Origin: an uncultured Actinomycetes bacterium
Lineage (GTDB): Bacteria > Actinomycetota > Acidimicrobiia > Acidimicrobiales > RAAP-2
Reading direction: 5' to 3'
Length of the DNA: 64,000 bases
Assembly: GCA_903825305.1 (NCBI GenBank)
Contig: CAIKAC010000012.1
Span: 124,001 to 188,000, forward strand
Position numbers and translations under genes: made by a program. The notes below the pieces were generated by a model. It was not told the origin of the DNA. It made no database searches and saw nothing but the letters and a program-made list of their open reading frames with translations. Shown here in pieces: positions 4,517 through 11,530 of the stretch. Position 1 is the stretch's first letter. The number at the start of each line of letters is the position of its first letter.

Positions 4517-7500
4517 ATGTTGCGTCGTCGATTTGCGCTTGGCATTTCCGCGATACTGCTCGCAGTATCAGGAACACTCGTAGGCCTCGGAGCAGGTGAG
4601 GCTGGTGCGGTCGCTGCGCCCAATGATTCTTCTGCGACGTTTAGCTATGCAAGCAGCGCCATTACCTACGGTCAAAATGTTGCCGTAGCTGCCCAAACCT
4701 CAAGTGTGGTCATTGCGGTTACCCCATCGCAAGGTTGTAGCGCAACGGTGGCATTCATTGCGAGTAACGCCTCGGGTTCTCCAGTAAGTGACGCTGGGCT
4801 CTCTGGTTCGGTTGGTCCCTGTGTTGCTGGCACCTACAACGTGACGGTGTCTGCACTGACGACCGGTGGCAACTCCGTAGTGATCCAGGTTACGGCGTCG
4901 GACACCACATCGCTTACGCGCACGCCATTCACCTTTACCGTCCACAATTCAACGCCAGATTCCAATGTCTTCATTCCGCTCCAGGCGCCCGACACGTCGT
5001 GTGGATCAAGTCCCCAGCCCCCCACGGCACACCGACTCAACCCTTCGATCCACCTGGCCGCATTGACGAACCCTTGCTACTCGGGAACATGGGGAACCCC
5101 TATGGGCGTGCTTGCACAAACTGATGCAAACAACCCATCGAGTACCGACTCAATGTCCACCACCTTGGGTGGCGGTTCCGTTTCTTATTTCATCGACACT
5201 GGCTCGAATGGGAATACCTCAGACAGTGGTTGTAGTTTCTCGAACTCCAGCCAATACATCAACGAGACGAACACAGGACACTGCTATGTATACGCGGTGT
5301 ACGACCCCAGCACGACGGGATACAACAGTTACACCACGGTCGACACTGACTATTACTTTGGGCCTATAGATCAGGGATCACTGAGTTTGAGTGGCTCCAC
5401 GCAGGAATGGGAAGTGCCCGTCACCTTGGGGAGCAAGCTCAGCGGCGGCTCGGGTTCAGGAAGTGTGACCTACACCTTGACTGACGCCTCAGATCAGTAC
5501 TGCAGCATCACGAATGGTGTACTCACCGAGCTTGAGCCTGGCACTTGCTATGTCTATGCGGTGAAGGGCAGCGACCCGAATTACAACGAACAGACGTCGA
5601 ACACGGCGACCTACACCTTCACGATTGCAGCGCAAAACCCATCCATTTCAAACAGCGTTCCGCAAGATGTGTGGTGGAACTCGCAAATCCACCTGACTTC
5701 AAATGAGCTTCAGACCACCAATCCGAGCGCTTGGATGACTGGCCAACTGAACTTCGCTGGTTATGGCGATCAATACTGGAACAGCATTTACACCGGACTC
5801 GACAACTTGGGCAGTTACGCGAACAATGTGTTCTCATACGGAACGCCTCAGACCGTGCAGTTTGCTTTGGACACTTGCTACACCGGGATGAGTCCCAATG
5901 GCAATGGTTTGTGCGGGAGCATTGGAAACCTGGAGTCGGCTTCGGATCCGGGCTGCTCCTTGACAGGTGGTGTGCTGACCTATGCGTCGACACCGGCTTC
6001 CTTCATTTGGGCCGCCGACAATGTTGACGGCAAGCCACAAGGCACCTGCGCGGTCTACGCCTATGCCAGCGGCAACAATCTCTACAGCCAATACACGACT
6101 AACGACTACAACATCACCTTCGGGGTTCCTAACACCTACGTCCCGTTTGCGATTCAGGGTACGGACAACCAGTTCTCGAACAACACCTCGTCGGCCTACA
6201 CCTGGAACGTCAACCCCATGTCGGTCGATGTGAGCTCTAGCGTTACCTTGAGTGCGCCGACCACCAATGCTGGTCCCTTGGGAACAGGTCAAACGCTGAA
6301 CTTTGGGCAAAGTGATGGCAGCATCGACTGCGCGGTTCAGGGTAATCAAGTAGTCGATAACTCGTACAACACAGATGGCAGTTTGAAGACTGGTTGGTGT
6401 GAATTCGTTGGTTACTACGACTACCAAACTGGCTGCAACCTTGGCTGTTCGCACCGCATCCATGCATCAAACTCAACGGGCAACGGCTACTGGGAGTCTG
6501 ACGACGCGGTCATTATCTTCTTCGGCGCCGAAACGAACAACTTCAGCGTGGTTGCCAATGCATCACTCGTCACCCCAGAGCCCGGTGCGCACGTTCACGC
6601 CTCGGTGGGCAATGGGAGTTACTACGTTGCCAACTGGGGTCAGGGCGTGAGCTTGGATCCTCAAGGGACCTTTGACACCACGAGTGGCAGTGGAGGCGAC
6701 TACTTCCCATGCTTCCCGGCATGGATTTGGTGTGCGGCAGGTGAGAACCCAACCACGGCGTTCAACACGTGGCCCAATGAAGGGGCGATGCAGTATCAGC
6801 TAGTCACCACGCAGACTGTTCCACAATGCTCGTCTACCAATTCAGGTATCCCATTCATTCCCTGCTCTGACCCGAGTTGTCAATTGACGGGTCGAACGGT
6901 TACCTCCAATGAGCCAGGCACCTGTTTCGTCTATGCCTATCTCAACGGAAACGAGCAGACAGGTCCGGCGCGCTCTTCCAACATCATTCAAATCAACTTC
7001 CAGAACTACCTGTCGCTCTACGCCAATGCCGACAATTACATTTCCAATGACGTCTATGGGTCGAGTCTGGCTGATTCTCCAACGCTCTATACCTATGGCT
7101 TCTGGGGCAACGGGAACAATGTCAGCTTCAGCGTGACATCGGGGTCGTGCACCATCGGCATGCCGAACGTGAACACCAATGTGAGTGGCCCCGGCTCTAG
7201 TGCGTGGGGGACTTCAGGAGTGAGTGCCTCGGTGGCTTCGGGGGGAACCGTCAATAATTGTGTGATTACGGCGTCTTATGTTGATCCGCAGACGGGGAAT
7301 ACGGTGGCATCGAACGAGATCACCATCCAATTCCGACAACCACAGGCAAACCAGCTTGCCCTCACGGGAAATCAGAACCCGGGACCATGGAATACCTCGA
7401 CGAGCACCCTGTCGGTGGTTCACAAGCTCGGTACTGGTGCTGTCTCCTTCGCCATTGCCAACGGTTCTGACCGAACCTGTGCGGTGAGCTCTGAGGGAGT

Positions 7501-8437
7501 CGTGAGCGCAGGCGAATCAGGCAACTGCTTGGTGACCGCTACCGTCGCTGGCGATTCGAACTACCTTGCAGGTACGACGCCGGCATACGAGGTCACCTTT
7601 ACGACCGGTTCGCAGGCCATCACCGTGGAAAACTCGGCCCATCAAACTGCGAGTTCAGCTTCGGTGACATGGAGTCAAGGCGCCACCTATCAGGTGTACG
7701 CATCGAGCACGGGGGCATCCGTGATCACCTTTGCGGCGACGAACAATGGCGTCTGCACTGTGAATGCCACCACCGGATTGGTTTCGATCAATTCAGCTGG
7801 CGTTTGCTACCTCACGGTATCTGCGAGTGGCAATCCCAACTACACACCCCTGACGGCCACCTTTACCTTGAGCGTGCTGCCAGCGCCGCAGACCTTGACG
7901 CTCTATGGCAACGGCAACAAGGGTCTCAACTGGGTGGCCTCGTTGCCCTACGGCGGCACCTTCGCCATCTCGGCCACGACCAGTGCTCCCGGTGAGACCA
8001 TCGCGTATCACACCACGAGTTGGAACATCTGCCAAGTAGACGGCGTCACCGGTGCGGTGACCTCACGCAATCCTGGAATGTGTTATGTCGTTGTGACCTC
8101 CAACGGCAACTCGAATTTTCAAGCCGCGCAAGCGACTTACAACTTGACCATTCGAATCACGAAGACGGCGAGTCTTCGTTTCCGTGGAGCATCTACCACC
8201 TTGTCGGCGCAACAGCGGGCCTCACTTGCCGCAACTGCGCAAGCCATGGTGGCCCAGCACGGCACACACCTCACGGTGATTGCGAGTGGCCCTCATGCCA
8301 GTGCACGGGTGTTGAGCGTCCGTGCCGCCTTGGCAAAGGTGCTCGGAACTCTTGGCGCCAAGGTCAAGTTTGCTTCTCCTGACAAGGGGAGTGACGCTCC
8401 GGCCAATACGGTGATCGTGAGCTACTGGGTCGGCTAG
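4517..8437 (+). CDS. Giant secreted repeat protein with paired-cysteine Ig-like repeats and OmpA-like C-terminus
   Basis: A 1306-residue protein with a Sec-type signal peptide (basic MLRRR start, hydrophobic helix to about residue 30, Ala-rich cleavage region). The body is Ser/Thr/Asn/Gly/Tyr-rich and built from repeats of one plan: a Cys near a beta-strand start, a turn, then a motif like EPGTCYVYA with a second Cys 13-35 residues on. I count at least seven such units, for example around 5240-5300, 5500-5560, 6870-6960, 7480-7560, 7750-7830 and 8030-8100. The paired cysteines likely form disulfides outside the cell. The last 90 residues resemble a degenerate OmpA-like domain (LSVRAAL near the LSxxRA position). 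No sortase signal is seen. Function unknown; a surface or adhesive role is inference. Confidence 0.85.
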   Translation: MLRRRFALGISAILLAVSGTLVGLGAGEAGAVAAPNDSSATFSYASSAITYGQNVAVAAQTSSVVIAVTPSQGCSATVAFIASNASGSPVSDAGLSGSVGPCVAGTYNVTVSALTTGGNSVVIQVTASDTTSLTRTPFTFTVHNSTPDSNVFIPLQAPDTSCGSSPQPPTAHRLNPSIHLAALTNPCYSGTWGTPMGVLAQTDANNPSSTDSMSTTLGGGSVSYFIDTGSNGNTSDSGCSFSNSSQYINETNTGHCYVYAVYDPSTTGYNSYTTVDTDYYFGPIDQGSLSLSGSTQEWEVPVTLGSKLSGGSGSGSVTYTLTDASDQYCSITNGVLTELEPGTCYVYAVKGSDPNYNEQTSNTATYTFTIAAQNPSISNSVPQDVWWNSQIHLTSNELQTTNPSAWMTGQLNFAGYGDQYWNSIYTGLDNLGSYANNVFSYGTPQTVQFALDTCYTGMSPNGNGLCGSIGNLESASDPGCSLTGGVLTYASTPASFIWAADNVDGKPQGTCAVYAYASGNNLYSQYTTNDYNITFGVPNTYVPFAIQGTDNQFSNNTSSAYTWNVNPMSVDVSSSVTLSAPTTNAGPLGTGQTLNFGQSDGSIDCAVQGNQVVDNSYNTDGSLKTGWCEFVGYYDYQTGCNLGCSHRIHASNSTGNGYWESDDAVIIFFGAETNNFSVVANASLVTPEPGAHVHASVGNGSYYVANWGQGVSLDPQGTFDTTSGSGGDYFPCFPAWIWCAAGENPTTAFNTWPNEGAMQYQLVTTQTVPQCSSTNSGIPFIPCSDPSCQLTGRTVTSNEPGTCFVYAYLNGNEQTGPARSSNIIQINFQNYLSLYANADNYISNDVYGSSLADSPTLYTYGFWGNGNNVSFSVTSGSCTIGMPNVNTNVSGPGSSAWGTSGVSASVASGGTVNNCVITASYVDPQTGNTVASNEITIQFRQPQANQLALTGNQNPGPWNTSTSTLSVVHKLGTGAVSFAIANGSDRTCAVSSEGVVSAGESGNCLVTATVAGDSNYLAGTTPAYEVTFTTGSQAITVENSAHQTASSASVTWSQGATYQVYASSTGASVITFAATNNGVCTVNATTGLVSINSAGVCYLTVSASGNPNYTPLTATFTLSVLPAPQTLTLYGNGNKGLNWVASLPYGGTFAISATTSAPGETIAYHTTSWNICQVDGVTGAVTSRNPGMCYVVVTSNGNSNFQAAQATYNLTIRITKTASLRFRGASTTLSAQQRASLAATAQAMVAQHGTHLTVIASGPHASARVLSVRAALAKVLGTLGAKVKFASPDKGSDAPANTVIVSYWVG

Positions 8438-8506: not shown

Positions 8507-9625
8507 TTAGTGAGTCTTCAGTGATCCGAGTGACAAAGCAACAGCATCGAGTGCTGTGCCAAGGACGCTGACGTCATGGTCGGTCGTGGCCCATCCCACG
8601 CTGATACGCAGCGAATGCAAGCCGTCGTATCCCAAGGCTTGGTGGGTGGCCGAGGGGAGGGGATCTTCTCCACTACAAGCGGAACCAGCATGGACGGCGA
8701 CGCCGGAGCGATTCAGTGCCATCGCAACGGCGCTGGCTTCAAAACCTGGTGTTACGTAACTCGAGAGATAGCCAAGCGTTGGGACCTGTTGGCTCGCTAG
8801 CCGATGTCCGAGGCCACTAGCCAACAGCATCTGGTCGATTGATTGGCAAAATCTGCGAGCCGATTGATCTTCGACTTCGCGTTGCTGTAGATCAGCGAGG
8901 CAGTCAGCTGCTAGTCCAAAGCCGATAATGCCGAGATGGTTCTCGAGGCCCGACCTGCGACCTCGCTCTTGAGCCCCGCCGAGCAGCTGAGCCTTAACTC
9001 GTAGATCGCCTTGGTGAATGAGCGCCACGCTACCCAAAGGGCCACCGAGAAGTTCGGCGCTGACAATACGAAATGCTGACCTCTTGGGGCGCTCGATCGA
9101 GCGACCAAAGGTCAAGGTTTCATCACAAATCACTGAGGCATCCGTTTCTTCGGCGATGTCAAAGATTGCTTCTATATCATTAATGACGCCAATTTCTTGG
9201 TTGGCGTGTTGCGCGACGATGATGGAGCCACGGAACTGTCCCGCCGTGGCTGCAAGGTGGTCGAGGTCGATACGACCTTGCTCATCTAGCTGCACCTGAT
9301 GAACGGTGCTGATGGCGGCGGCATGCTCTAACAGCGAGAGTCGCTCGGCCGCTGAGGTGATGATTGGCACGGAGCGCGCCTCAAGCGAGGAATATGCCGT
9401 CAGCGCAGCTTCGGCTATCGAAGACATGAAGGTCACGGACCGTGCTTCGACGCCTGCGAGGTGCGCTATCGAATTTCGAGCCTGTTCAATGAGATCTCTG
9501 ATAACCAGCGCATCATCGAAGGGCCGACTGGGATCAACCTGGGGCAGATCAAGGAGCTCTTTGAGTCCAGCACGAACGGCCGGCCGCAAGGGGGCGGCGG
9601 TCGCATAATCGAAGTAAACAGCCAC
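8507..9625 (-). CDS. NifS-like (aminotransferase class V) protein lacking the PLP-binding lysine
   Basis: About 372 residues from a GTG at 9625, one base after the stop of the upstream regulator. An ATG at 9682 (19 more residues, overlapping the regulator) is the alternative. The GTG start gives the family-like opening VYFDYATAAPLRP. Cysteine-desulfurase features seen are HANQEIG, a conserved Asp in CDETL, and the sulfur-carrying cysteine in HAGSACSGEDP (Cys317). However, the Schiff-base motif SxHKxxGPKG reads SAELLGGPLG (9032-9061), so the PLP lysine is Leu and the preceding His is Glu. TSGATE is also changed (MSSIAE). It is therefore probably not a normal desulfurase and may be a pseudoenzyme or PLP-independent partner. 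It lies in an operon with a SufR-like regulator. Confidence 0.82.
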   Translation of the reverse strand: MAVYFDYATAAPLRPAVRAGLKELLDLPQVDPSRPFDDALVIRDLIEQARNSIAHLAGVEARSVTFMSSIAEAALTAYSSLEARSVPIITSAAERLSLLEHAAAISTVHQVQLDEQGRIDLDHLAATAGQFRGSIIVAQHANQEIGVINDIEAIFDIAEETDASVICDETLTFGRSIERPKRSAFRIVSAELLGGPLGSVALIHQGDLRVKAQLLGGAQERGRRSGLENHLGIIGFGLAADCLADLQQREVEDQSARRFCQSIDQMLLASGLGHRLASQQVPTLGYLSSYVTPGFEASAVAMALNRSGVAVHAGSACSGEDPLPSATHQALGYDGLHSLRISVGWATTDHDVSVLGTALDAVALSLGSLKTH

Positions 9626-9626
9626 G

Positions 9627-10346
9627 TCAGGCGCTGGTGCGACAGGCTTCGTCTCCGCGTGCCCGAGAGGAGAGCTCAACATGGGTGCTGCCAAGGGCTG
9701 CACCCATGCCGACCAAGAGTCCTTGGACCATGCCTCGGTCAACGGCGCAGAGCACCGGGTGATGGGCGGCCGCTTGTCCAAAAGGGCAGTTCTCGGAGAC
9801 GACAGAGGTGGATTGCTCGCTCACTTCGGCACGGGCTGCAAAGCCATGAGCCGTCAGAACCTCAGCGATCGCAGTCATGGCGGTGCGAACCGAGCGGTTC
9901 GAGTCCTGATTGCCCATTTCTCCGGCCAATTCTTGGCCGTAAGCAATACCAACCTCGGTGGCCATGGCTTCAGCCTGATCGGGCCCCAAAATCTCAAGTG
10001 ATCGCTCAAGGAGGCGAACGAGGAGGGCATCTCGCTGTGAGCCGAAATCAATGGTGCTGGCTTCTTCTTTGCACCGGTACCGCTTGGCCGGACGGCCAGC
10101 CCCAGCGGCCTTCTCCGGGGCTTCTGCAACGATGTGGCCAGCAGCAATGAGGCGGTCAAGGTGGTGGCGGACCACATTGGGGTGCAAGCCAAACGTTTCA
10201 GCCAACTGGGCAACGGTTTGCAAAGGATTGGCCCGCAAACTTAGGAAGATCTCACGCCGGGTTGGGTCGCCAAACGAGCTCGATAACGCAGCCATGGTGG
10301 CTGTGAAATCTGCGTCGCGAGAAGAGACGTCTGCTGTATTCGCCAC
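9627..10346 (-). CDS. SufR-like winged-helix regulator with conserved cysteines
   Basis: A 239-residue protein with an N-terminal winged helix-turn-helix (about 18-95, LGLHPNVVRHHLDRL-type recognition region, GRPAKRY wing). The C-terminal sensor part contains ENCPFGQAAAHHPVLCAVDRG with Cys187 and Cys200 at the 12-residue spacing seen in SufR. A further Cys235 lies in the tail. SufR-type proteins bind an Fe-S cluster and repress iron-sulfur assembly genes. The third cysteine is about seven residues further on than in well-known SufR, so cluster binding is inferred. GTG start; TACACT lies 7 nt upstream of it, suggesting a leaderless mRNA. It is co-transcribed with the NifS-like gene and divergent from mrp. 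Confidence 0.82.
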   Translation of the reverse strand: MANTADVSSRDADFTATMAALSSSFGDPTRREIFLSLRANPLQTVAQLAETFGLHPNVVRHHLDRLIAAGHIVAEAPEKAAGAGRPAKRYRCKEEASTIDFGSQRDALLVRLLERSLEILGPDQAEAMATEVGIAYGQELAGEMGNQDSNRSVRTAMTAIAEVLTAHGFAARAEVSEQSTSVVSENCPFGQAAAHHPVLCAVDRGMVQGLLVGMGAALGSTHVELSSRARGDEACRTSA

Positions 10347-10399
10347 GGTCGGTAGTGTACCAGTGGCCCTGTTTTCTCAGTCGGCCAGAGGAGGAATCG

Positions 10400-11530
10400 G
10401 TGAGCGTTAGCGATCAGGTGCGCAGTGCCGTGGAGTCCGTGGTTGACCCCGAGTTGGAACTCTCGCTCGGCAGCGTCGGCATGGTCGGCACGGTTGAAGA
10501 GCGCAAAGGCGTCTTCGAAGTCGAACTCAAGGTGCCCATGGTCGCCTGGCCGTCAGTGCCGGCATTGAGTGCAGCCATTGAAGCTGCCGCTAAGGCTGCT
10601 GGCGCCAGCAGCGTCGCCGTATCGCGGGTCACGATGAGCGAACCTGAGCGCATGCAATTGAGGAGTGCCCTTCGCGGTTCGATGGTGACGGCTGAGCAGC
10701 ACCCAGGTCACCACCATGGACCTTCTGAAAAGCCCCGGTTCTTGGCCAAAGAATCCAAGACTCGGGTCCTCGGCATCTCTTCGGGCAAAGGCGGCGTCGG
10801 CAAATCGTCCGTTACGGTCAATCTCGGCATTGCCCTTGCTCGCCATGGCGCGCGCGTCGGCATCTTGGACGCTGACGTGTATGGGTTTTCCGTCCCCAAG
10901 ATGATCGGGACAACCCATGATCCGGTCATTCTTGGCGACACGGTTATTCCTACGGCAGTTCATGGCGTTCGTTGCCTCTCGATGGGGTTCTTTGTCCCCG
11001 ACGACAAGCCAGTGATTTGGCGTGGGCCCATGCTTCACAAGGCCATTGAACAGTTTGTGACCGAAGCGCAATGGGGAGAACCGGACTACCTACTCATTGA
11101 TATGCCACCAGGCACTGGTGACGTCGCACTCACCCTTTCTGAAGTGTTGCCCAACGTTGAGATTTATGTCGTGACCACGCCGCAGCCTGCTGCGCAGCGT
11201 GTGGCACAGCGCTCGGCGTGGGCTGCTCGCAAAATGAAGTTGGCGGTTCGCGGAGTGATTGAAAACATGAGTTGGTTTACCGGTGATGATGGCCGGCGCT
11301 ATGAACTCTTTGGGGCCGGCGGAGGCGAAACCTTGGCCACTGATCTTGGAGTTCCGCTTCTCGGTCAGATCCCCTTTGCGCCTGCGTTGCGCGAAGGAGG
11401 AGACGACGGAAATCCTGTAACAGTTGCGGAACCCGATTCAGAAGCGTCAAGGGCTTGCTTTGCGGTGGCGGACAAGATTGCCGCCCAGGGTCCAGCACGC
11501 GTCTATCGCCAAGAACTCACCCTTCGATAA
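10400..11530 (+). CDS. mrp: Mrp/ApbC-family P-loop ATPase (iron-sulfur carrier type)
   Basis: A 376-residue protein from a GTG at 10400 preceded by an AGGAGGA-like ribosome-binding site. The N-terminal MIP18/DUF59 domain (about 1-90) is joined by a His-rich linker to an ATPase domain with the deviant Walker A GKGGVGKSS (about 129-137), DADVYG and a DMPPGTGD switch. Mrp/Nbp35 proteins load or carry Fe-S clusters. The CxxC pair that binds a bridging cluster in ApbC is absent here (ENMSWFTGDDGRRYELFG), which I recall for other actinobacterial Mrp proteins. Divergence from the SufR-like/NifS-like pair fits an Fe-S context. Confidence 0.9.
   Translation: MSVSDQVRSAVESVVDPELELSLGSVGMVGTVEERKGVFEVELKVPMVAWPSVPALSAAIEAAAKAAGASSVAVSRVTMSEPERMQLRSALRGSMVTAEQHPGHHHGPSEKPRFLAKESKTRVLGISSGKGGVGKSSVTVNLGIALARHGARVGILDADVYGFSVPKMIGTTHDPVILGDTVIPTAVHGVRCLSMGFFVPDDKPVIWRGPMLHKAIEQFVTEAQWGEPDYLLIDMPPGTGDVALTLSEVLPNVEIYVVTTPQPAAQRVAQRSAWAARKMKLAVRGVIENMSWFTGDDGRRYELFGAGGGETLATDLGVPLLGQIPFAPALREGGDDGNPVTVAEPDSEASRACFAVADKIAAQGPARVYRQELTLR

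Follow-up and report, generated by a model that had tools for sequence, protein, structure and literature searches.

Organization of the locus

The window, that is, the whole stretch of 64,000 nucleotides analysed here, contains a gene for a NifS/IscS-like protein that lies directly behind, and is probably co-transcribed with, a gene for a SufR-like regulator, while a gene for an Fe-S carrier ATPase of the Mrp/ApbC type diverges from sufR (Table 1). In a preliminary description of this DNA the nifS-like gene had been taken to run from 8507 to 9682. The GTG start at 9625 is more likely than the ATG, because most relatives start at or next to that column and because the stop of sufR lies at 9627, and all residue numbers given for the NifS-like protein count from this GTG. 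The mrp frame is open from 10355, and its GTG is preceded by a GAGG-type ribosome site. Convergent to the nifS-like gene lies a frame (4517-8437) for a secreted-looking protein of 1306 aa; segments containing Cys recur in it, and it matches no Pfam family.

Table 1. Features of the sufR-nifS-like locus (positions in the window)
Feature	Position	Strand	Remarks
NifS/IscS-like protein without the PLP lysine	8507..9625	-	372 aa; GTG start 9625, alternative ATG 9682
C317 codon	8675..8677	-	Cys of the GSACSGE loop; conserved in 126/126 relatives
L192 and E191 codons	9050..9055	-	L192 (PLP Lys column) 9052-9050; E191 (adjacent His column) 9055-9053
R95 codon	9341..9343	-	column of the PLP-facing/general-base His (IscS His104)
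SufR-like regulator	9627..10346	-	239 aa; ArsR-type winged helix with C187, C200 and C235
Conserved palindrome GTCGGTAGTGTACCAGT	10348..10364	.	proposed (putative) SufR operator; overlaps the -10-like TACACT of a leaderless sufR promoter
Mrp/ApbC-type Fe-S carrier ATPase	10400..11530	+	N-terminal FeS_assembly_P (DUF59) domain; divergent from sufR

The regulator matches HTH_20 (41 bits), and Cys187, Cys200 and Cys235 are invariant in 107/107 of its orthologues, whatever the lysine state of the partner gene. Its score against the NCBIfam model SufR_cyano, 35.1 bits, is well below the cut-off of 178.8, and we therefore call the regulator SufR-like on the winged helix and the three cluster Cys in its sequence. 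The pairing with a SufR-like regulator that had been proposed for the NifS-like protein thus stands as to adjacency and the invariant Cys, but not as to a match at the level of the family model. No second close SufR-like protein was found in the window genome. The order of the divergent mrp and sufR-nifS-like genes is conserved among relatives, often together with a dGTPase and an ArsA pair, and the NifS-like relatives can therefore be regarded as true orthologues.

The palindrome YCGGTAGTSTACCGR was found between sufR and mrp at 92/101 loci, compared with 3/101 in shuffled sequence. It is present at 71 of 81 Lys-bearing loci and at 20 of 21 Lys-less ones. On the sufR strand it contains the -10-like TACACT, which precedes the GTG start by seven bases, and because of this overlap part of its conservation may be that of a promoter. 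The nifS-like gene is absent beside sufR in five genomes (G010, G044, G030, G039 and G166). At four loci that keep sufR and mrp without it the palindrome is missing in every case, although the SufR Cys are kept in all four, and it is also absent from a fifth such lineage, G044; the lineages compared are few and not all independent. The loci with sufR and mrp that have neither the nifS-like gene nor the palindrome are L293, L294, L295, L296 and L299. In the window genome the exact form GGTAGTSTACC occurs once, at the window site. No palindrome was found in the suf cluster of this genome or in the sufS stretches scanned in five genomes, which leaves a role of the SufR-like protein as the SUF regulator of the window genome without support from this site. 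In the relatives, searches with one mismatch allowed gave no more matches than the control, a level at which a regulon is unreadable.

Active-site residues and predicted fold

The sequence SAELLGGPLG is encoded at 9061-9032 of the minus strand in an open frame. An alignment that includes the orthologues as well as the paralogues with Lys from the window genome places E191 and L192 in the His-Lys columns of NifS/IscS, and the loop motif GSACSG with C317 is intact. The alignment therefore bears out the preliminary description, in which the PLP lysine was replaced by Leu and the neighbouring His by Glu while the Cys of GSACS was retained. Like E. coli IscS and the class I NifS proteins, the window protein has the fold, the GSAC loop Cys and an active-site Arg and Asp, but it differs from them in lacking equivalents of Lys206, His104, His205, Thr76, Gln183 and Thr243. 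What is retained of the old active site is Asp168, the ring-nitrogen Asp, Asn142, and Arg340, which binds the substrate carboxylate; the roles of IscS residues other than Lys206 and His104 are taken from the general understanding of that enzyme. A further key change, absent from the preliminary description, is at R95, where Arg has taken the place of the general-base or stacking His; in IscS the corresponding His104 is the likely general base (PMC8300815).

Two objections had been foreseen for the loss of the lysine, a sequencing error at 9032-9061 and an equivalent lysine elsewhere in the structure. An error or frameshift is ruled out by the same change (AELLGGPLG) in an independent assembly of a sister species (G001), whose protein is 61% identical to the window protein, and by the loss of Lys in a clade of 15 genomes. 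A lysine shifted to another site is ruled out as well: the window protein has four lysines (22, 181, 211 and 370), and no Lys column is conserved in the Lys-less clade, the best one having Lys in 5/15 members.

Pfam Aminotran_5 matches over the full length with 92 bits against a cut-off of 21.5, while the equivalog cut-offs of NCBIfam are missed (NifS 119 of 531 bits, IscS 90 of 548, DndA 105 of 480). An AlphaFold2 model made from an alignment of 31 rows has a mean pLDDT of 90.9, and its sole segment with pLDDT <50 is 317-319, the loop of C317. In Foldseek the model matched NifS/IscS structures with TM of about 0.86, Archaeoglobus fulgidus IscS being among the best PDB matches. By its sequence and predicted structure, a class V aminotransferase fold with the GSAC loop Cys, the protein is a member of the class I cysteine desulfurase fold family. 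Membership does not extend to the enzyme itself, as the PLP Lys column holds Leu and the His104 column holds Arg95.

Recurrent loss of the lysine in the orthologous family

Orthologues were collected throughout the order, and the named records are nearly all from Acidimicrobiales, Acidimicrobiia or uncultured actinobacterial MAGs. The preliminary description had pointed to relatives as the place to look for the same loss, and it is indeed found there. The 126 non-redundant sequences, three of which are the Lys-bearing paralogues of the window genome, comprise 101 with HK, 24 without the lysine and one too short to type; the sample is biased toward relatives of the window, so that 24/125 should not be read as the frequency in the order Acidimicrobiales. 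The Cys is present in 126/126, Asp168 in 125/125 covering sequences and Arg340 in 125/126; Asp168, Asn142 and Arg340 are kept in nearly all Lys-less members. The motifs QERxRRxGxE and GSxCSSE are characteristic of the family.

The Lys-less states fall into those in which His95 has become Arg (EL, EM, EG, ET and TG; 15 genomes) and those in which His95 is kept (HT, HS, HR, SR and HE; 9). The 15 His-to-Arg members, the window protein included, form one clade (support 99; 100/96) that spans several genera. In a tree of 106 rows from which the trait columns had been removed, the lysine state changes 7 times, with 6 changes forced by starred branches, and in a bootstrapped tree of 40 rows it also changes 7 times (bootstrap range 6-7, 5 forced). 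A single origin of every Lys-less form is not supported, with 7 changes on both trees, and was recovered in 0% of bootstraps. Such counts do not prove direction, but because the canonical enzymes and the great majority of the orthologues have the lysine, loss is the natural reading, and these sequences suggest that the lysine has been lost independently about seven times.

Within the clade of 15, R95 and R306 are found in 15/15 members, E191 in 14/15, and the phosphate-side Thr71 has become Ala in 10/15. The branch to the window pair is long (1.9 changes per site). The frames are nonetheless open in all Lys-less members, the Cys is present in 24/24, and 48 positions that are conserved in the Lys-bearing members are also conserved in the Lys-less clade. 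Purifying selection is seen in dN/dS (NG86) of 0.09-0.29 for close Lys-less pairs, compared with 0.25 for one Lys-bearing pair. In the family as a whole, Lys-bearing members included, the column of IscS Gln183 is usually Ala and that of Thr243 usually Leu or Met. Since these pocket columns are altered even where the lysine is present, the pocket had already changed when the lysine was lost. Desulfurase activity should not be assumed for the Lys-bearing members either (for example L007 and L008), whose pocket columns are unusual.

Other sulfur enzymes of the genome

A second, normal desulfurase, whose presence had been suggested as a point to check, is found more than once. The window genome has a complete SUF system, with SufB, SufC twice, SufD, SufS and SufU, and the NifS encoded beside mnmA and a DndA-like desulfurase encoded beside DUF4007 and HNH genes both keep HK. 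The NifS-like protein as the sole desulfurase of the genome is therefore rejected, SufS, the MnmA-linked NifS and the DndA-like protein all having HK. The paralogues are 27-28% identical to the NifS-like protein and unlinked to it. Among the other genomes without the lysine, those checked also have HK in the MnmA-linked NifS, and SufS is above the cut-off in most of them, being fragmentary in G053 and below the cut-off in G020. As SufS and the MnmA-linked NifS are present, the supply of desulfurase is covered elsewhere in the genome. No separate IscU was found in the window genome, where the only NifU_N protein is the SufU beside SufS on another contig.

The SUF cluster (L075; G000:C11:118-129 kb) is split and partly duplicated, with two SufC-like ATPases: sufB is followed by unrelated genes, sufD and sufC, and then by sufC2-sufS-sufU on the opposite strand. 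The DndA/IscS-like gene (L002; G000:C2:41839-42900) lies between genes for an HNH_2 endonuclease and a DUF4007 protein, which suggests a DNA phosphorothioation locus or a related defence island.

Function of the NifS-like protein

Because the Schiff-base lysine and the general base have been lost, desulfurase activity is very unlikely, and the sequence evidence gives good support to the conclusion that the NifS-like protein is no desulfurase. The PLP-independent desulfurase-like activity that had been envisaged finds no support either, as the general base and the phosphate-binding residues are gone too; the other part of that proposal, a role in handling sulfur or in regulation, is plausible. 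At the same time the gene is unlikely to be dead, because the Cys, most of the conserved positions, the gene pair and the palindrome have been retained. With moderate confidence we infer that the protein is a non-catalytic, Cys-bearing docking or ligand partner in a SufR-controlled cassette beside Mrp/ApbC. PLP chemistry would have been abandoned, and with it presumably the binding of PLP, since the sequence no longer has the Lys of the Schiff base, the His that serves as general base or the His and Thr on the phosphate side. The reason for keeping the protein would lie in its fold, in C317 on the mobile loop and in the surface offered to a partner. The protein is encoded by the second gene of a putative sufR-nifS-like unit facing mrp/apbC. 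If the regulator behaves as SufR does elsewhere, apo-SufR would leave the palindrome when cellular Fe-S is scarce, and more NifS-like protein would be made. C317 might then accept persulfide sulfur from an active desulfurase, or ligate a nascent cluster, and the sulfur or cluster might be passed to a local acceptor, for which Mrp/ApbC, SufU/SufBCD and SufR itself are candidates. The gene is not universally needed, because it has been lost in several lineages that keep sufR.

This deletion also makes slow decay the main rival explanation: a redundant desulfurase, the needs of the cell being met by SufS and the MnmA-linked NifS, would have drifted in its catalytic residues until the gene was finally deleted, as beside sufR in the five genomes named above. 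The roughly seven losses of the lysine, the presence of the redundant enzymes and the long branch to the window pair are all in keeping with decay, but we consider it unlikely, given that every Lys-less frame is open, that dN/dS is low, that the Cys and 48 positions are still conserved and that the new residues R95, E191 and R306 have become fixed across a clade of 15 genomes and several genera. Retained binding of PLP or another ligand, non-covalently and with altered chemistry, is highly improbable. Asp168, Asn142 and Arg340, kept in nearly all Lys-less members, leave room for a ligand, but the equivalents of Lys, His104 and His205 and mostly the phosphate Thr have been lost in the clade, and those of Gln183 and Thr243 are usually changed family-wide.

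Two further explanations give the protein a specific partner. It may pair with SufS or with the MnmA-linked NifS, both Lys-bearing desulfurases, as the regulatory subunit, or the one without a catalytic site, of a heterodimer in the manner of LCB1 in serine palmitoyltransferase or of GcvPA/GcvPB. Active sites of the IscS type are found close to the interface of the dimer, and the loop that bears the Cys can act across subunits, as with IscS-TusA (PMC2854127). Every Lys-less genome that was checked for a paralogue with the lysine has one; these paralogues are, however, distant and unlinked, and we regard a heterodimer as very doubtful. Alternatively, the protein may act on the Fe-S cluster of the regulator with which it is encoded, by loading, stripping or blocking it, and so set the feedback of the cassette. 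It adjoins the only close sufR of the genome, the two being probably co-transcribed, the palindrome has been lost where the nifS-like gene has been lost even though SufR and its Cys remain, and there is a precedent in M. tuberculosis, where WhiB3, an Fe-S regulator, is an interaction partner of IscS (PMC10848736). Adjacency by itself says little, though, only four or five lineages without the gene could be compared, and turnover of the promoter whose -10-like element the palindrome overlaps could explain its loss, so that this too is quite improbable. A bolder speculation, which we think distinctly unlikely, is that repeated, parallel conversions have turned the desulfurase fold into a non-catalytic Cys partner of SufR, the loop Cys reading or setting the cluster of the regulator and the lysine being dispensable since the ancestor worked mainly by binding.

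Comparison with known systems

Taken as a non-catalytic Cys partner, the NifS-like protein is not a wholly new type, as had been supposed, since Lys-less IscS proteins have precedents in Archaeoglobus fulgidus and Methanosarcina (both in the account of PMC7585200). According to that account, which cites Marinoni 2012, Yamanaka 2013 and Pagnier 2014, A. fulgidus IscS has Asp for the PLP Lys, its desulfurase activity is reported absent, and its Cys is a ligand to a [2Fe-2S] cluster on IscU; structures are available (PDB 4eb5, 4eb7 and 4hvk, and 4r5f for the D199K mutant). The two proteins share the class I desulfurase fold, the natural replacement of the PLP Lys and the retained loop Cys. They differ in that the A. 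fulgidus protein is archaeal with IscU as partner, whereas the window gene stands with sufR and mrp in a genome that has only SufU, no separate IscU, and because of this the A. fulgidus pairing is not directly transferable. The window clade has, in addition, lost the general-base and phosphate-side His, and here Lys has been lost repeatedly in a single family of orthologues. Methanosarcina acetivorans IscS1, described in the same account as without the essential Lys, is similar in being a Lys-less paralogue alongside normal IscS copies in the genome, but it is from a methanogen and paired with IscU1, and no link to SufR appears in the passage on it.

The regulator resembles SufR of M. tuberculosis (Rv1460) and of cyanobacteria in its ArsR-type winged helix and three invariant Cys, and its first Cys pair is CX12C, as is C203/C216 of Rv1460, where both Cys are functionally required (PMC6034842). 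The third Cys, however, follows 34 rather than 27 residues on, and unlike these SufR proteins the window regulator is encoded at a nifS-like/mrp locus, its palindrome being absent from the suf genes scanned.

A literature search worded for a lysine-less desulfurase pseudoenzyme found nothing, and the present family is not described in the literature found outside subscription sources. New here are the occurrence in a bacterial family, the setting with SufR and Mrp in place of IscU, the simultaneous loss of further pocket residues and a recurrent, parallel loss of the lysine. With A. fulgidus as the single case, a Lys-less IscS might have been no more than an oddity; in one orthologous family and one genomic setting the lysine has apparently been lost about seven times, while the sulfur Cys is invariant. 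With orthologues of both kinds, with and without the lysine, under one regulator, the family offers a natural experiment for telling apart what cysteine desulfurases contribute to Fe-S biogenesis by catalysis and what they contribute by binding. It is also a warning for annotation, since such genes will be named cysteine desulfurase even though most of the active site is gone. A matter of labelling of another kind concerns a MAG recorded as Bifidobacterium breve (L140, CAMDCC010000018.1), which has an acidimicrobial nifS-like gene and whose organism name looks wrong.
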